This document shows positions 1-64,000 of a stretch of DNA of 64,000 nt, one piece after another. Position numbers and translations under genes: made by a program. The notes under the pieces were generated by a model. The model saw nothing but the letters and a program-made list of their open reading frames with translations, searched no databases and was not told the origin of the DNA. Where the stretch lies: assembly GCA_026129465.1 (NCBI GenBank), contig JAHCIA010000001.1, positions 2,803,964-2,867,963 of the forward strand, read 5' to 3'. Each line of letters starts with the position of its first letter. The stretch's first letter is position 1. Source of the DNA: Flavobacteriales bacterium. GTDB lineage: Bacteria > Bacteroidota > Bacteroidia > Flavobacteriales_F > PHOS-HE28.

Positions 1-217
1 CGAGCGCCTCGCGCAGGCCGGGCAACCCGGGCATGGGCGCATACTGGTTGTGGCCCCCGCGCATGGCCTCCTGCACCAGCGACACCAGTTCGGGATCCAC
101 GGGAAAATCGGGAAATCCCTGGCTGAGATTGATGGCGCCGGTCTCCTGGGCCAATTGGCTCATCACGGCGAAGATGGTGGTGCCCACGTCGGGCAGTTTG
201 TCGGCGGGCAGGCGCAT
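1..217 (-). CDS. Class I/II aminotransferase, N-terminal part (methionine aminotransferase-like)
   Basis: The reverse strand reads an open frame from an ATG at 217 to the window edge, 72 codons, with no stop. It begins MRLPADKLPDVGTTIFAVMS and continues with the phrase INLSQGFPDFPVDPEL and then HNQYAPMPGLPGLREAL. These are the N-terminal signatures of fold-type I PLP aminotransferases of the YbdL / kynurenine-oxoglutarate transaminase group, which act on methionine and aromatic amino acids. The PLP lysine lies outside the window. An in-frame TAG four codons upstream fixes the start region. The family is clear; the exact substrate is inferred from the N-terminus only. Confidence 0.8.
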   Translation of the reverse strand, partial: MRLPADKLPDVGTTIFAVMSQLAQETGAINLSQGFPDFPVDPELVSLVQEAMRGGHNQYAPMPGLPGLREAL

Positions 218-477
218 GCGGCCAAGCTACACATGGGGCATTACGGGGCGTACTGGCACGCGGCTGTTCGGAGCCAACAGAGGAACAGCGATATCGTGTA
301 CCATGGGATCACCCCTGAATCGGGCACGCCATGCGCCAGTTCCAAGTGGATCCCAGTGGTTTGTGAGACGCGCAGGAACAGGAAATGAGCTGTGGAATAC
401 CACGTGAAGGCAGGCATCTGGTTTGGTCCGCACCTCGTTGTTATCCACCTTCATCTTCCACAATAAATTCAACCGCC

Positions 478-1518
478 ATGCGACATACAACATCCAACAT
501 CCAACATCCAACCAGATCAGCCCATAGGCTGGCGGCCCTTGCCCTGATGAGCGCCGTGCTGATCACCGCCTGCCGCAAGGAAGCACGCGGCCCCGCCTTA
601 CCCGGCAGCACCAGCGAAGCCGCGCAGGTGAACCCCACCCCCCGCATCAAAGCTTTCATTGAACGCGCCCTGGCTTCAGACGCCAAGAGCGGCGGTTTCC
701 TGAGTGTGGACAGCGCCGTGTGGTATGTGGAGGCGGCGCTGAACTACAGCATGACGGGATCGGGCTTGCCCAATGAAGATATCGTGGTGTATCCCTTCGA
801 GGTCCTGGTGGAAACTATCGGTGACCATGTGGATGCACATGCCACGTCACAGGCTTTCCTGTCTTTCGCTACGTCCATGGAGGCGGTCGCCGACGCGGGT
901 CGCCACTGGGTCATTGTGGATATTGTAGCGGAAAGGAGTGGAAGCCGGCTCAAGCTGGATTGCTTCGCGTATAGCGCGACTGGCGGCGCCAAACTGAACA
1001 CGAATTTCGGCTCCAACGACTATTGGCTCTGGGGAGGAGGCAGCAGCAGTTGCGCCTGTCCCTCACACACGGGGAACAACCCCGGGATCTGTGCTGACAA
1101 GCGGATCGAGGCGCGCATCAACGCCGCCATCGGCAGCATAGGGGTGGACTGCTACCACATCAATGTGGAGACGTGGTACATACGGGATAGTCAGAATTTG
1201 GGATCGAACCAGTACGGCTATGACGATTTTCTGAACCCGAACGATAGCACGCAGTGGGATTGGTTCTTCGACTATCAGACGTATGCGTGTGTGACGTCCG
1301 GTGGCTGTACGTCCTGCCTGGACCCCACGGACCATAGTTTCTACACACAGGGTACATGGGATGTGGCACAGACGATACGGGCGACCCATTGCCCGACCAA
1401 GGATCTCGTGGTGGCCGCGGTCAACGGGACCACGCTGACCTGCACAGGTGGCTGTGGGTTCTATCTCCATGTGGCCGACTTCACCTATGGGTTCAAGGTA
1501 TGTGGCGAGGACTCTTGA
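478..1518 (+). CDS. Cys-rich lipoprotein, first gene of duplicated cassette, copy 1
   Basis: 346 residues. A long n-region is followed by a hydrophobic stretch LAALALMSAVLITAC with a lipobox cysteine at residue 32, so it is probably an outer-membrane-facing lipoprotein. The C-terminal half is rich in cysteine and tryptophan (CACPS, CADKRIE, SGGCTSCLD) and contains YTQGTWDV, also present in copy 2. I recognise no named family. ATG 478 is chosen because it precedes the signal peptide in frame; four CCAACAT-like heptads follow it directly (487-513). The frame is open further upstream to 385, so the start is not certain. The stop overlaps the next gene by four bases (TTGA), implying translational coupling. 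Confidence 0.75.
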   Translation: MRHTTSNIQHPTRSAHRLAALALMSAVLITACRKEARGPALPGSTSEAAQVNPTPRIKAFIERALASDAKSGGFLSVDSAVWYVEAALNYSMTGSGLPNEDIVVYPFEVLVETIGDHVDAHATSQAFLSFATSMEAVADAGRHWVIVDIVAERSGSRLKLDCFAYSATGGAKLNTNFGSNDYWLWGGGSSSCACPSHTGNNPGICADKRIEARINAAIGSIGVDCYHINVETWYIRDSQNLGSNQYGYDDFLNPNDSTQWDWFFDYQTYACVTSGGCTSCLDPTDHSFYTQGTWDVAQTIRATHCPTKDLVVAAVNGTTLTCTGGCGFYLHVADFTYGFKVCGEDS

Positions 1519-3029
1519 TCCGAGCGGCGCTTCATTCTTGCGTCTTTTTATGGGAACCCGCGAAGGCGCAGAATGACTGGGTGTATGTGGGTGATCATTT
1601 GCCCAGCGAGTGCAATATCACCGATGCTGTGGAACTCTCTACGGGCTTCCTGCTCACGCGCATTGACAAAGGCATTGGAGGTACACAGCCCTTCACATCG
1701 TCCGTGATCCACTTGAATGGTAGTGGCAGTGTATCAGAGGTCATCCCATTGGCCGTGGGTTCTGCCTCCGCTGGTGTCGTGTCGATAATGTCAAGCTCGG
1801 ACAATGACGGACACTATCTCAATGGATTGTGGCGCGGTGCCATGGAGAACGCCACCGGGTTCTATCATGGCAAACTCTCAAGTACGGGTCAGGTCATTTA
1901 CGAGCAGACCTTCACGTTCCCTGGTCTGATCTCGACGAGTCTCGAGAATGTCCTGGTCACGCAGACAGGAGATCTGGTTCTGCCGGGAACAGGAACGACC
2001 GGCCCTTCTCCCATACCCAATGCCCTGGTCTTGCTACGTGTGTCCCCAGAGGGCGATTCGCTACACTCCGCTCAGTATCAGGTATCATCTGGCGTGTCGA
2101 TCACGCGGCATGCGATCGAGCGTGGGGATGGCATCCTGGTCTCCATGCAAGGCGGCCCTGCATTTGAACTGGGAGGGGGGACCAAGTATGTCCTTCTCGA
2201 TGATGACTTCAACGCGACAGGCGGGTTCCTCGCGCCAAATGTGGGCGGTCAACCGGAAGACTATCACCCGGACAGTCTTTTCCGCATACCCATGGATATG
2301 GTCGCCGTGGGCGGATCGGCCATCATGGTGTCCGGCGAGATAGGCCTCAACAGCCTCGGGAAAAGGGCAGGTGTAATGGTCATTGATGATCAGGGGACAC
2401 TCCTCAGGCAGTTCCTGCCACAGAGTGCGTACCTGCATGATCACCCTCCGCTGTTATCCGGCTTGGCGCAGAAGGACGATAACGGATACTACTTCGCCAT
2501 GGTCGAGAATTTTCACGCAGGTATGTTGCCCTACGAACCGATAGAACCCAGCAGAGCGAGGGTCTTTTTGCTCGACAGCCTGCTCCAAGCTCATTGCACG
2601 TTCGTTCTGGATGGATCTGAGGACAATGTCTACTATTCCTTGGACCGCATTCGTGCAGCGTCCGATGGCGGGTTCATCCTGATGGGCTCGCGCAAGCTCA
2701 TCGGTTCGGGCCAGCGCTTTCAGGCCTGGGCCCAGAAGTTCCCGCCCGAAGCCTGCCAGCCTGTGGGCGTGGATGAGCATGCACCACTATCCGCCCACCT
2801 CTTCCCCAACCCCGGCACCGAGGGCTTCGCCGCCACGCTGAACGGCCCGGTGGTGCAGGGCGGCACCTTGCGGCTCTTCGAAGCCCAGGGGCGGCTGGTG
2901 GGCAGTGTGCCGGTGCAGCAGAGCAGCGCCCGCTTCAATGCGCAGGGCCTGGTGCCGGGCATGTACTTCTACCACATCAGCGATGCGCAAGGCCGGTCGC
3001 GTGGGAGTGGGAAGTGGGTGAAGGAGTGA
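1515..3029 (+). CDS. T9SS-sorted secreted protein, second gene of duplicated cassette, copy 1
   Basis: About 504 residues. TTG at 1515 overlaps the previous TGA and sits behind a GGCGAGGA ribosome-binding-like stretch; it corresponds to the coupled ATG used in copy 2 at 4180. A short hydrophobic signal peptide ends near AKAQN. The body looks like a beta-propeller of SDGGFILMG / SSDNDGHYLNG-type strands. From about residue 425 comes a type A T9SS sorting domain: SAHLFPNPGTEGF, then GTLRLFEAQGRLVG and PGMYFYHISDAQG, ending in KWVKE. It is probably secreted and attached to the cell surface together with the upstream lipoprotein. Confidence 0.8.
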   Translation: MIRAALHSCVFLWEPAKAQNDWVYVGDHLPSECNITDAVELSTGFLLTRIDKGIGGTQPFTSSVIHLNGSGSVSEVIPLAVGSASAGVVSIMSSSDNDGHYLNGLWRGAMENATGFYHGKLSSTGQVIYEQTFTFPGLISTSLENVLVTQTGDLVLPGTGTTGPSPIPNALVLLRVSPEGDSLHSAQYQVSSGVSITRHAIERGDGILVSMQGGPAFELGGGTKYVLLDDDFNATGGFLAPNVGGQPEDYHPDSLFRIPMDMVAVGGSAIMVSGEIGLNSLGKRAGVMVIDDQGTLLRQFLPQSAYLHDHPPLLSGLAQKDDNGYYFAMVENFHAGMLPYEPIEPSRARVFLLDSLLQAHCTFVLDGSEDNVYYSLDRIRAASDGGFILMGSRKLIGSGQRFQAWAQKFPPEACQPVGVDEHAPLSAHLFPNPGTEGFAATLNGPVVQGGTLRLFEAQGRLVGSVPVQQSSARFNAQGLVPGMYFYHISDAQGRSRGSGKWVKE

Positions 3030-3157
3030 GATGCACCATGGGATCACCCCTGTATCGGGCACGCCATGCGCCCGTTCCAAGTGGATCCCAGTGGTTTGTG
3101 TGATACGCTTCAACCGGAATTCCGCAGTGGAACTCCACGTGAACGCAGGCATCTGGT

Positions 3158-4180
3158 TTGGACCGCCCCTCGTTGTTATCCACCTTCATCTTCCACAACA
3201 AATTCAACCGCCATGCGACATCCAACATCCAACATCCAACCAGATCAGCCCATAGGCTGGCGGCCCTTGCCCTGATGAGCGCCGTGTTGATCACCGCCTG
3301 CCGCAAAGAAGCACCCGGCCCCGCCCTGCCCGGTGCCACAAGCGAAGCCGCGCAGGTGAACCCCACCCCCCGCGTCAAAGCTTTCATTGAACGCGCCCTG
3401 GCCGCTGACGCCAAGAGCGGCGGTTTCCTGAGTGTGGACAGTGCCGTGTGGTATGTGGAGGCGGCGTTGAACTACAGCATGAGGCGAACATGGCTGGATG
3501 CGAATGAACTCATCCTGGATTCTATGCAAGTGGTGGTGCCCGTTACAGACCAAAGGATCACGGCTTGGGATGCGGGACAGGCTTTTCTGGCCTTGTCAGA
3601 AGCGCTCTCGGCGAATGACCAACCCGGGGTATCACACTTGGTGGTGATCGACGTGTCGCAAGGGTCTGCGGGCGTTGGTTTGACGCTGTGTGCGACCGCC
3701 TTGGTGGGTTCCGGGTATGACAAGTCGTTGAATACCAGCTATGGGGCGAATGACTACTTCATGGCCTATGGTGGACTGTCAAGTTGTGGCTGTGGCCCGA
3801 ACCAAGGAGGGACGGGATTATGTGCCGACAAGCAGATCCAGAACAGGGTCAACTTCGCCTTGGTCCATCCGGTGAACAGCTATTGGACGGATATCGAGAA
3901 CAAGCAGCTTACTGCCTCCTCGTTGCCGCTTGGGGGGATATGGCAATGTGAAGGAACCGTGTTCGAGCCATGTGATGCATGCTTCACTCCGTCCATGATG
4001 GCCCAGTACACACAGGGTACTTGGGATGTGATATGGTTCAATACACCTTCTGGTAAGGAGCCGATCAGGACAACGGTGTTCCCCAACACCTTCACATTGC
4101 CCTATCCGGATGACGATATTCACATACAACAGCACGTTGCGGAAGCCAGATATGGGATCAACAATTTGCCGTCAGAGTGA
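3158..4180 (+). CDS. Cys-rich lipoprotein, copy 2 (start out of phase)
   Basis: Paralogue of the gene at 478. The frame containing the lipobox (ALMSAVLITACRKEA) runs to a TGA at 4178-4180. The ATG matching copy 1's start (3213) is out of frame because one 7-bp repeat unit is missing, and from that ATG translation ends after 20 codons. The only in-frame start before the signal peptide that I see is a TTG at 3158; ATG 3275 lies inside the signal sequence. The mature part shares CADKQIQ and YTQGTWDV with copy 1 but is otherwise diverged, ending NNLPSE. It is either expressed from a poor start, phase-OFF, or a recent pseudogene. Confidence 0.6.
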   Translation: MDRPSLLSTFIFHNKFNRHATSNIQHPTRSAHRLAALALMSAVLITACRKEAPGPALPGATSEAAQVNPTPRVKAFIERALAADAKSGGFLSVDSAVWYVEAALNYSMRRTWLDANELILDSMQVVVPVTDQRITAWDAGQAFLALSEALSANDQPGVSHLVVIDVSQGSAGVGLTLCATALVGSGYDKSLNTSYGANDYFMAYGGLSSCGCGPNQGGTGLCADKQIQNRVNFALVHPVNSYWTDIENKQLTASSLPLGGIWQCEGTVFEPCDACFTPSMMAQYTQGTWDVIWFNTPSGKEPIRTTVFPNTFTLPYPDDDIHIQQHVAEARYGINNLPSE

Positions 4181-5739
4181 TGCGATTGATCTCGGTGACA
4201 ATTGCCGTATTGGTCGTGCTGTTCATGTATGCCCAGAACTCTTGGACGTTCGAAGGGTCGGGGGAATGGCAGGAAGGGGATGCCATGCTTCTTGACGTCG
4301 TGGAGACCGGGAGCGGCTATTTGATCGGAGCCGGAAACCGATCGGGCTCTGGCAGCACTTCCGCTTGGTATGGCCACTTGCTAAAGTTGGATCCGCATGG
4401 CGCATTGCTGACCTCGAGGAGGCTCTGGAACCATGATGACATTCACTACTCCATCGTATCGATCCAAGAGGATCTTGCCTCGGGTGATTGGTTGGTCTTC
4501 GGCCATATCAGGGATGCGGAAGGCGCACGGGGCATTGCCACTTATAGATGCCATGCGGACCTCACGCCGATCGATTCTTCGTACCATGTTTTTCCGGGGC
4601 TTGGACTTGTTTCTTTCGGCAATGTCACCCGTGATACGGATGGTACGTATTTGATCGCGGCCGCAGGAAGGGTCAGTACACCCCTGCCTGACAGGATGAT
4701 CCTCATGCGATTCGGGGCCGATGGCGATCTGCTCGACGAGCGGACCTTTCTGCTCACGGCTCAACCACCCCCGATAGCGCATCCCTATGTCATTCCAAGA
4801 CATGTGATCACCATGGACGGTGGTGGATCCTTGGTGGGCTGTGCCGGTGACCTGCAGGATGTGATACCTTCCGAGCGCAGTTCGTTCCACCGGTTCGACC
4901 AAGCGTTCACGCTGCAAGGATCATTCTACCCCCCGCATGCCGATGGCAGTGTGGACCCATGGGGCATCGCGGAAGGTTGGAAGACCATAAGCGAACACCA
5001 TTTCATGCACCGCCAGACCAATGGGGACTTGATCGTCAGTGGCCGCCGGGGTTCATTGAGCCACGGTTATCGTGCCGCGATCAACCGGATAACGGAAGAT
5101 GGAGGATGGATCTCCGCGTTCCTGCCGGAAAGCAGTTCGTGGTACGACTATCCATTCATGTTGAATTCATCCTGGCAACGGGAAGATGGCAGGGTGCTTT
5201 TCGGAATGATCGAAGCATATCACACGCCTGTGGCCGGGTTGCCCTTGGACCCCAACCGGATACATGTGTGGGAGTTGGACACGATGCTGAACCCGCTCTG
5301 CAGTGCGCAAGTGGCCCATGGTGATGAGTTGGATCTGTATTACCAGCCGCAACGCATCAAGGCCACATCGGATGGCGGCATCATCGTGATCGGCGGCGTG
5401 GCTTCCCTGAGCGACCCCAACCCCATTTTCGACTACTGGGCTGTGAAGCTGGGGCCGGATGATTGCCTGACCATCGGCATGGAGGAGCATGCATCACTTT
5501 CCGCCCACCTCTTCCCCAACCCCGGTACCGAGGGCTTCACCGCCACGCTGAACGGCCCGGTGGTGCACGGCGGCACCTTGCGGCTCTTCGATGCCCAGGG
5601 GCGTCTGGCGGGCACCACGCCGGTGCAGCAGAGCAGCGCCCGCTTCAATGCGCAGGGCCTGGTGCCGGGCATGTACTTCTACCACATCAGCGATGCGCAT
5701 GGCCGGCCACGGGGCAGCGGGAAGTGGGTGAAGGAGTGA
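4180..5739 (+). CDS. T9SS-sorted secreted protein, copy 2
   Basis: 519 residues. ATG at 4180 overlaps the upstream TGA (TGATG); a GTG just before it is also possible. The signal peptide is RLISVTIAVLVVLFMYAQN. The centre resembles a propeller of repeated ATSDGGIIVIGG and SIQEDLASGDWLVFG phrases. The C-terminal 80 residues are a type A T9SS sorting domain almost identical to that of the paralogue at 1515 (HLFPNPGTEGF, GMYFYHISDA, KWVKE). It is probably a surface-exposed or released protein working with the coupled lipoprotein. No enzyme motif is visible. Confidence 0.82.
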   Translation: MRLISVTIAVLVVLFMYAQNSWTFEGSGEWQEGDAMLLDVVETGSGYLIGAGNRSGSGSTSAWYGHLLKLDPHGALLTSRRLWNHDDIHYSIVSIQEDLASGDWLVFGHIRDAEGARGIATYRCHADLTPIDSSYHVFPGLGLVSFGNVTRDTDGTYLIAAAGRVSTPLPDRMILMRFGADGDLLDERTFLLTAQPPPIAHPYVIPRHVITMDGGGSLVGCAGDLQDVIPSERSSFHRFDQAFTLQGSFYPPHADGSVDPWGIAEGWKTISEHHFMHRQTNGDLIVSGRRGSLSHGYRAAINRITEDGGWISAFLPESSSWYDYPFMLNSSWQREDGRVLFGMIEAYHTPVAGLPLDPNRIHVWELDTMLNPLCSAQVAHGDELDLYYQPQRIKATSDGGIIVIGGVASLSDPNPIFDYWAVKLGPDDCLTIGMEEHASLSAHLFPNPGTEGFTATLNGPVVHGGTLRLFDAQGRLAGTTPVQQSSARFNAQGLVPGMYFYHISDAHGRPRGSGKWVKE

Positions 5740-5755
5740 GCGACGGTCCCCAAAG

Positions 5756-5819: not shown

Positions 5820-6263
5820 CTATTCCTTGAAGCCGGTGAGGATGGCCACGCAGCCCACGTGCACCATGTCGCTGGAGCCGCGGGTGGGCACCCACACCAC
5901 CACCCTCATCTGCGTGGTGCTGGCCACTTTGAAGTCGAACGACTTCTTGGGCTCGTCGGCGAGGCTCTCGAAGACGGTCTTGTTGTTGGTGTCCACCAGC
6001 TTCCAGTTCACCTCGCCCAGGATGGGGTGTACGCACACCATCACGCGGTATTCCTGGCCGGAGTAGAAGGTGAGGTTCACCTCGGCCTCTTCGCCGGGGG
6101 CGAGCTGGGCACCGTTGAAGGACTCATTGAACTTGTAGGGCGCCAGGTCGGGCACGCACTTGTTCTTGGCGAAGCTGCGGCACTGGGCCTGTGCGGCACC
6201 GGCCAGCAGCAGCAGCATGGCGGCCAGGGCGGCGATCGCGAGGGGGTTCCGTCGGGTGGTCAT
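5820..6263 (-). CDS. Small exported protein of unknown function
   Basis: 147 residues with a clear Sec signal peptide (PLAIAALAAMLLLLAGAAQAQ). The mature part begins CRSFAKNKCVPDLAPYKF and contains EEAEVNLTFYSGQEYRVMVC and KSFDFKVASTTQMRVVVWVP, a beta-rich pattern like a small carbohydrate-binding or C2-like sandwich. I recognise the style from Bacteroidota exported proteins but no named family. It starts 8 bases after the stop of the upstream lipoprotein gene, so the two probably share a transcript. Confidence 0.75.
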   Translation of the reverse strand: MTTRRNPLAIAALAAMLLLLAGAAQAQCRSFAKNKCVPDLAPYKFNESFNGAQLAPGEEAEVNLTFYSGQEYRVMVCVHPILGEVNWKLVDTNNKTVFESLADEPKKSFDFKVASTTQMRVVVWVPTRGSSDMVHVGCVAILTGFKE

Positions 6264-62320: not shown

Positions 62321-64000
62321 GTACGCCTACGATCGAATTGGTCTCGGGCGATATTGCCAATAGCTGCGGCACCGATCCGCTGCTGTATACCGCCGATCCA
62401 CCGGGAGGCACTTGGTCGGGCTTGGCAGGGCCAGGCGGTGTGGTGGATCGCTCTTGTGCCATGCGTCCGGCTGCTGGCCAAGTGCTCTACACCTTTTCTG
62501 CTGCCAACGGGGATTGTATTGGGAGCGCAGGTGTGATCCTGGATCTGAAAGCTTGTGTTGCCATAGACCTCGGGCCTGACATCGAGCTATGCAGCAATGC
62601 GGACACCTTGGTCGTGACGTTGCTGCCGCCCTTCAATGGTGGTGCCGATCTGGATGGGGACTTTGACCTGGTGCTGTATACCCCCAACCCTCCGGGTCCG
62701 CCGGTGCCTACTGGTTATTTCAGCCCTGGCAAACCAGCTGGTATCTATACGCTCACGGGTATGAGGACCGCTGCCAACCAGTGTCCCGGATACGATACGC
62801 TGCTGGTAACAGTTGTGGCCGCACCTGAGGTGGACCCTGGAGTCTACGGGCCAGCATGTAGCATTGATGGGCCGATAACGTTGGAGGGTGATCCGGCGGG
62901 CGGGACTTGGAGCGGTACTGGGGTCACTGGTGATCAGTTCGATCCGGCAACGGGCACACAGACCATTGTCTATACCGTGACGGAAGGGATCTGCACCACC
63001 ATTGGGAGCGTGAGCATTGAAGTAGAGGAGCCCACCATCTGGTACGCGGATCAGGATGGGGACGGCCTGGGTGATCCGGCGGTGCAAGTCTTGGCCTGCG
63101 AACAGCCCGACGGCTATGTGCCCAATGATCTGGACCCCTGCCCGTTCCTGCCTTTCATGAGTCCCGGTGACGCCTGTGATGATGGAGATCCCTCCACAGG
63201 GAACGATACGGTGGATGTGAACTGTGCATGCGTTGGAGTGATGATCGACTGCAATGGTGAGGCAGGCGGCACAGCCTTCCTCGACAACTGCGGTGATTGC
63301 GTCGGTGGAAACACCGGCGACGTGGCCTGCGAAGCTGACTGCAACGGCGACTTCGGTGGCACTGCATTCCTCGACAACTGCGGGGTTTGCGTGGGTGGCA
63401 ACACAGGTGAGTTGCCCTGTGTGGCCGACTGCAACGGCGACTTCGGTGGCACTGCCTTCCTCGACAACTGCGGGGTTTGCGTGGGTGGCAACACTGGTGA
63501 GTTGCCCTGTGTGGCCGACTGCAACGGCGACTTCGGTGGCACTGCCTTCCTCGACAACTGCGGTGACTGCGTTGGGGGCAACACTGGGGAGTTGCCCTGT
63601 GTGGCCGACTGCAACGGCGACTTCGGTGGCACTGCCTTCCTCGACAACTGCGGTGACTGCGTTGGGGGCAACACTGGGGAGTTGCCCTGCGTGGCCGACT
63701 GCAACGGCGACTTCGGCGGCACAGCCTTCATCGACAACTGCGGTGATTGCGTGGGTGGCGACACGGGACTTGCGCCCTGCGCGGATGATTGTCTGGGTGA
63801 GCCCGGAGGCGACGCAGAGGTCGATGCCTGCGGGGTGTGCTATGTAGGTGGCGCTACCAATCCCTCTTGGAACTCCACCTGTGCGGACTGTGTTGGCGTT
63901 CCATATGGCCCAGCACAGATAGGTACTCCTTGTGACGATGACGATCCGAACACAGAGAATTCATACTGGACGGACGATTGCAACTGTGATATTGGAACTG
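62137..64000 (+). pseudogene. Continuation of the giant surface protein beyond the TAA, open at the window end
   Basis: No stop occurs in this frame to 64000. It reads GPLCAFGDPIVLDLAQPSGG, further Ig-like units, then a calcium-type WYADQDGDGLGDPAVQVL, and from 63247 six tandem 30-residue units DCNGDFGGTAFLDNC / G-VCVGGNTG. The protein continues past the window, where a T9SS sorting domain would be expected. If the stop is real, this half is untranslated or read through; if it is an error, the whole is one protein of more than 1390 residues. Confidence 0.7.
63247..63786 (+). repeat. Six tandem 90-bp coding repeats (DCNG...CVGG)
   Basis: Units start at 63247, 63337, 63427, 63517, 63607 and 63697; each is 30 codons, and units 2-5 are nearly identical at DNA level. 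Every unit carries four cysteines (DC, NC, DC/VC and PC). A seventh, diverged unit starts at 63787 (DCLGEPGGDAEVDACGVC). Confidence 0.9.

Follow-up and report, generated by a model that had tools for sequence, protein, structure and literature searches.

A tandem lipoprotein and type IX secretion cargo cassette with a frame-shifting repeat behind the start codon and recombined ends: a candidate phase-variable surface module in a Flavobacteriales bacterium

The window analysed here, a 64,000-nt stretch of the genome of a Flavobacteriales bacterium (GenBank assembly GCA_026129465.1, contig JAHCIA010000001.1, positions 2,803,964 to 2,867,963), carries near its left end two tandem cassettes, each consisting of a lipoprotein gene (lip) followed by a gene for a cargo protein of the type IX secretion system (T9SS). 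Directly behind the start codon of each lip gene lies a short tandem repeat that shifts the reading frame when its number of units changes. With a probability that we put at roughly three in four, these cassettes are copies of a two-gene surface module that is switched by a simple sequence repeat (SSR), encodes a novel lipoprotein and a T9SS-exported seven-bladed beta-propeller, and is diversified by recombination. The initial annotation of this DNA had recognized the duplication and suggested antigenic-variation-like behaviour, but it missed the repeat, and on/off phase variation by such a frameshifting tract is the far better-evidenced mechanism of variation.

The repeat behind the lip start codon

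In both tandem cassettes, the heptanucleotide AACATCC is repeated directly 3′ of the lip ATG, and copy 2 carries one heptamer fewer than copy 1 (Table 1). The lip1 frame that opens with the ATG at 478 continues across the tract and into the lipoprotein signal peptide. In lip2, the missing unit places the ATG at 3213 outside the frame of the gene, and reading from it halts after 20 codons. This out-of-frame ATG was the point to be corrected in the earlier description of two tandem 2.7-kb lipoprotein and cargo copies, the coordinates of which hold. The third cassette of the same genome (L007, G000:C1 at ~1.336 Mb) is in frame (ON), as is copy 1, and copy 2 is out of frame (OFF), so both states are present within one genome. 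A 17-nt heptamer pattern, AACAYCCAACAYCCAAC, occurs in this 3.88-Mb genome only at its three cassettes.

Among the 45 genomes of the genus, which are also all the genomes compared for the order, the family is present in 13, with 20 cassettes in total and one to three copies per genome. A post-start tandem repeat was found in every one of the 20 cassettes, with units of 2, 5, 7 or 8 bp and never of a multiple of three; 17 of these repeats passed a strict exact-repeat threshold. The units comprise the 7-mers AACATCC, AACACCC, AACGCCC, CACCCCA, AAACGCC, CCCCCAA and AACGCAG, the 5-mers ACAGC and CAACG, the 2-bp unit CA, and the 8-mers CACAAACG, CAAACCCG, ACAACCGC and AACCGCAG. At orthologous sites, recognized by shared flanks, the period is kept (5; 7; 7; 8) and the unit sequence has changed. 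In a 400-kb sample of the source genome, 2 of 280 open reading frames (ORFs) carried a tract of this kind close to their start. The other long tracts found in this genome precede their start codons: GAGTGAA ×7.7 (L108:14674-14727) and GACAACG ×3 (L114:1993-2013) stand directly upstream of sucC-like and etfA-like starts, respectively, and so belong to the 5′ leaders of housekeeping genes. Two assemblies are interrupted inside the tract, one by a scaffold N-gap (L092) and one by a contig end (L093, the contig of which starts inside the tract, with the start codon outside the sequence), as unresolved variable repeats do. At another locus (L097:5735-5990, genome G002), lip carries an internal deletion that has removed the signal peptide and most of the N-terminal part; the ATG and a pentamer tract still precede the lip remainder, and the cargo gene is intact.

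The reading frame could be scored at 17 loci. Four were in frame, namely copy 1 of the window (W1), L007, L029 (with a GTG start) and L094, and 13 were out of frame, with a stop after 7–35 codons; these proportions are close to those expected if tract lengths were random. Ten of the 13 out-of-frame loci would open if one or two units were gained or lost. A repeat in the 5′ coding region with a unit that is not a multiple of three, and the toggling of an otherwise intact ORF by such a change, are features of SSR contingency loci. The ratio of nonsynonymous to synonymous divergence (dN/dS) in lip was ~0.15 for L035/L036 and ~0.18 for L032/L034, pairs in which both members are out of frame, and ranged from 0.15 to 0.25 in closely related out-of-frame pairs. 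Such values indicate that the tested out-of-frame genes are not dead but are maintained by purifying selection. Within a population, tract length would be expected to vary; the signs of this are indirect, namely the two assembly breaks mentioned above and the differing unit numbers of W1 and copy 2 (W2).

According to the explanation that we favour, slippage at replication would add or remove a repeat unit and thereby bring the signal peptide and the lipoprotein into the frame of the ATG (ON) or take them out of it (OFF). The cargo would probably be switched together with lip through translational coupling, because the lip stop overlaps the cargo start or lies shortly before it (TTGA at 1515–1518 in unit 1, GTGATG at 4177–4182 in unit 2). 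In all 14 lip loci found at first, the cargo gene lies directly 3′ of lip, and in nearly all of them the stop and the start overlap or lie within about 12 nt of each other. The lip–cargo pair is retained in every genus locus and recurs in Bacteroidales, which supports the earlier idea of a two-component surface module; one fixed gene pair in all relatives, which was named at that time as a finding that would refute the earlier reading, does not agree with the sporadic presence, the variable copy number and the differing sites of the family. The two proteins may act jointly at the surface, where the benefit would be that cells escape phages or grazers, or that binding is varied.

The products of the two genes differ in how far they could be assigned. 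The lipoprotein is recognized as such by motif only, from an n-region, a hydrophobic core and the lipobox cysteine, which is invariant (C1) in the family alignment A1, e.g., in the motifs LITAC and LVAC; searches of Pfam and NCBIfam gave no credible family. A PDB sequence search with this protein returned only antibody matches, which were taken as chance. Its predicted model has a pLDDT (predicted local distance difference test) of 79, and the fold search produced nothing below E 1e-3, the best match (Z 7.8, archease-like half) being within the chance range, so no fold is claimed. All three cargos of the source genome score above the curated cut-off of TIGR04183 and are thus T9SS type-A cargos, and Pfam PF18962 stays under its gathering score for cargo1 and cargo2. 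Signal-like N-termini are conserved in the cargo alignment A2 and are weaker in cargo1; with its TTG start and poor signal peptide, cargo1 may be impaired or mis-started. The predicted cargo model (pLDDT 80) is a seven-bladed beta-propeller followed by the C-terminal domain (CTD), and it matches known structures with a Foldseek E of 1e-11 and a VIA Z of up to 33 across residues 18–430. Lectins and other propellers are among these matches, and binding of a glycan or protein at the cell surface by the cargo is a reasonable guess, no more. No credible promoter was found, the sigma-70-type scan scoring below the shuffle mean.

Recombination at the ends of the tandem copies

The initial annotation had described near-identical ends and strongly differing centres, and the alignment of the two units bears this out. 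BLASTN aligned the leaders (458 columns, E 9e-176) and the regions encoding the CTDs (E 2e-107), with the identities given in Table 1, and produced no alignment between unit 1 and unit 2 in the part between the leader and the 3′ end. In a global alignment read in 50-bp windows, identity at the left end is 0.78–0.98 and drops suddenly to ~0.3–0.5 past window position ~759; at the right end it is 0.86–1.00 from ~2779 onward. Overall, most 50-bp windows of the ends reach 85–100% identity, and the centres stand at about 40%. The profile is therefore a step rather than the smooth slope that would have spoken against the description.

At the codon level, lip1 and lip2 show a synonymous divergence (dS) of 0.19 over the N-terminal ~94 codons and of 2.8 over the remaining codons, and cargo1 and cargo2 show a dS of 0.14 in the CTD and of 2.5 elsewhere; the region 5′ of lip1, including the noncoding leader, is equally conserved between the copies. 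The ends of the third cassette differ from those of copies 1 and 2 by a dS of 1.6 or are saturated. The ends of copies 1 and 2 are thus not slow by nature, and constraint as the sole cause of their conservation is ruled out. Low dS at the ends, combined with saturated centres, argues that recombination, and not selection alone, keeps the ends alike, and indicates that recent recombination has linked copies 1 and 2 there. Low-dS tracts beside saturated divergence between tandem paralogues are as expected of gene conversion, and the favoured explanation assumes that recombination between neighbouring cassettes would prevent the leader/signal region and the sorting domain from drifting apart, with the exposed centres remaining diverged or being replaced via the shared end arms.

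The same pattern was found in an independent array that is unrelated to that of the source genome, the three tandem cassettes of the Bacteroidales metagenome-assembled genome (MAG) DINP01000031 (L054/L055). Here, dS is 0.04–0.22 in the CTD and 0.18–0.44 in the leader and the start of lip, and the cargo centres are saturated. For the lip copies b and c, the low-dS tract extends to lip codon 180 and is longer than in other pairs; such unequal lengths are as expected of conversion tracts. Identity is likewise biased to the ends in a third tandem pair (L058). The earlier proposal that the ends are kept alike by gene conversion or serve as recombination arms thus stands as far as recombination is concerned, on the grounds of dS, of copy 3 and of the independent array; conversion of the ends and replacement of the centres both fit these data. 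In contrast, the antigenic-variation-like behaviour suggested earlier finds no support in its classical form, and variation of the pilE/pilS type with silent donors is ruled out, since both tandem copies have the same full 5′ leader and complete ORFs.

Table 1 Features of the two tandem cassettes and their flanks (positions in the window)
Feature	Position	Strand	Remarks
Unit 1	297-3030	+	~2.73 kb; lip1 and cargo1
Unit 2	3032-5740	+	~2.73 kb; lip2 and cargo2
Leader repeat, copy 1	297..754	+	5′ region, start codon, signal peptide and first ~94 lip1 codons; 90.8% identity to 3032-3482
Leader repeat, copy 2	3032..3482	+	BLASTN match to copy 1 leader
lip1	478..1518	+	Encodes lipoprotein; ON (ATG in frame); codon for lipobox Cys at 571; family alignment A1
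lip1 heptanucleotide tract	483..512	+	About 4.3 units (ACATCCA), directly after ATG; TRF
cargo1	1515..3029	+	T9SS type-A cargo; TTG start overlaps lip1 stop; predicted propeller and CTD (fold predicted on homologous cargo2)
C-terminal repeat, copy 1	2766..3030	+	T9SS sorting domain; 92.5% identity to 5476-5740; TIGR04183 at cargo1 residues 429-494
lip2 reading frame	3206..4180	+	OFF: conserved ATG (3213-3215) out of frame and followed by a stop after 20 codons; codon for lipobox Cys at 3299
lip2 heptanucleotide tract	3218..3240	+	3.3 units; one added unit would restore frame; TRF
cargo2	4180..5739	+	T9SS type-A cargo; ATG overlaps lip2 stop; predicted seven-bladed beta-propeller and CTD
C-terminal repeat, copy 2	5476..5740	+	BLASTN match to copy 1 CTD
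Aminotransferase gene, 5′ end	1..217	-	Left boundary of inserted block; L008 ORF 9036-10181, minus strand
147-aa gene without assigned function	5820..6263	-	Right boundary; in 44/45 genus genomes

Competing explanations and genome context

Several observations weigh against an SSR-switched module. The Bacteroidales members have the lip–cargo pair but lack a post-ATG repeat, and within the genus the tracts of L029 and L032 are imperfect and that of L038 falls just under the repeat threshold. The lip2 tract is short (3.3 units), and its switching rate may be low. L030, L037 and L038 carry a further stop, which means that some copies are decaying. As most starts are out of frame, erosion could be all that is happening in some of the family, although constraint was seen in the tested pairs. 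Finally, cargo1 begins with a weak TTG start, and its signal peptide (1515–1580) is poor relative to those of its homologues.

The evidence from the ends could also be accommodated by recombination only, in which case the ends are homogenized by conversion (or the centres swapped), the repeat is incidental, arising where the start of a signal peptide evolves fast, and copy 2 is broken. The sharp dS steps agree with this view, as does the UBA5537 array, in which an equal end pattern occurs without a post-ATG repeat. However, repeats of varied units, never a multiple of three, at each of the 20 genus cassettes, against the background of 2 in 280 ORFs, would hardly be incidental; moreover, out-of-frame orthologues are under purifying selection, and a poly-C tract acts alike in another family, all of which makes this explanation unlikely. 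It is more improbable that the tract is a regulatory 5′ element at which an RNA-binding protein would attach or translation initiation would be set up, with translation starting downstream. Heptamer tracts do precede the sucC and etfA starts in the source genome, and heptamers near start codons are known: TAACTGA repeats adjoin start codons, mostly upstream, with one common unit, and some of them occur in Bacteroidetes (PMC4679880). The cassette tracts differ from these in following a start codon at every locus with complete sequence, and in having many unit sequences and lengths, which vary by locus. Most loci have no usable start between the tract and the hydrophobic core, except for ones that leave no proper signal peptide. 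In the in-frame copies W1, L007 and L094, the reading frame crosses the tract and goes on to encode a signal peptide that is proper for a lipoprotein.

The sporadic presence of the family (13/45 genomes), the many out-of-frame starts, the internal stops of L030, L037 and L038 and the internal deletion of L097 would suit a decaying, selfish-like family that is gained and lost sporadically, is mostly pseudogenized and has no switching role. Nevertheless, the ORFs behind the frameshift are full length in most loci, the close out-of-frame pairs retain their low dN/dS, and both the pair and its junction are conserved, so that we consider this possibility very remote and prefer the SSR-switched, recombining module.

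Outside the genus, at L098:1284-1400, in another family of the class, the lipobox is followed at once by a C11 run that disrupts the frame of the gene, and C10 would open a full ORF, which points to convergence on a frame switch. Additionally, in several Bacteroidales loci (L064 and L065, both near 3838, and L054, L055 and L071), a (TA)n tract precedes the lip Cys codon by about 165 nt. Between two Lentimicrobium-type MAG loci with 97.9% identity, this upstream tract differs in length by a single TA unit; the tract may be another, transcriptional, switch. A wider picture, on which we are evenly divided, would be a previously undescribed, Bacteroidota-wide two-protein system running on two clocks, with fast on/off switching by independently renewed repeats (5-, 7- and 8-mers, CA, poly-C) and slow exchange of the centres via the shared ends in arrays, such that the population presents alternative surface pairs.

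The block itself is flanked by the two genes listed last in Table 1, and these are adjacent, about 160 bp apart and without a cassette, in the genomes G066 and G030. Cassette sites differ between lineages, and the GC content is 53–58% in the cassette centres versus 64–68% downstream. The empty site, the varied sites and the GC content are consistent with gain and loss by exchange and with a recent gain of the block. Elsewhere in the window (63268–63764), there is a 90-nt tandem array of 5.5 copies with 92% matches, apparently coding for a Cys/Asp/Gly-rich repeat.

Relation to known systems

If the proposed reading is true, contingency loci would no longer be confined to pathogens: an SSR switch present throughout a genus, and renewed several times, would act on a T9SS cargo operon in uncultured environmental bacteria, in which phages and grazers, not immunity, would be the likely pressure. 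It would also provide a defined, testable lipoprotein–propeller pair, and the many repeat units in one family would allow the study of how switches arise and persist.

Most of what is known of phase variation in Bacteroidota concerns DNA inversion. The invertible promoters of Bacteroides and the SusC/SusD proteins represent phase-variable pairs of an outer-surface lipoprotein and its partner in the same phylum; unlike the cassettes, those pairs switch by inversion, and family scans of the cassette proteins gave no SusC/SusD homology. The review PMC11868660 names these systems (its ref. 61), and the Bacteroides examples found in it are also invertases or DNA inversions, not SSRs. In Porphyromonas gingivalis, T9SS surface proteins are diversified by recombination, through domain rearrangement and allelic exchange (PMC5266723), but the exchange there occurs between strains and in gingipain/haemagglutinin families, whereas here it concerns tandem two-gene cassettes combined with a frame switch. 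Searches of the open-licence literature, the silence of which is weak evidence, turned up no description of this lipoprotein family, the lip–cargo pair or SSR phase variation of a T9SS cargo.

Frame switching by SSRs is in itself of a known kind (PMC11868660, PMC2651432), with contingency loci in Haemophilus, Neisseria and Campylobacter among the examples (PMC11868660). The cassettes resemble these loci in having a short 5′ coding repeat with a unit not divisible by three, in their predicted surface products and in the proposed on/off switching by frame. They differ in belonging to environmental Bacteroidota, in that the repeat sits in the lipoprotein gene with which a T9SS cargo operon begins, and in the variety of the unit lengths between loci (2, 5, 7 and 8 bp).

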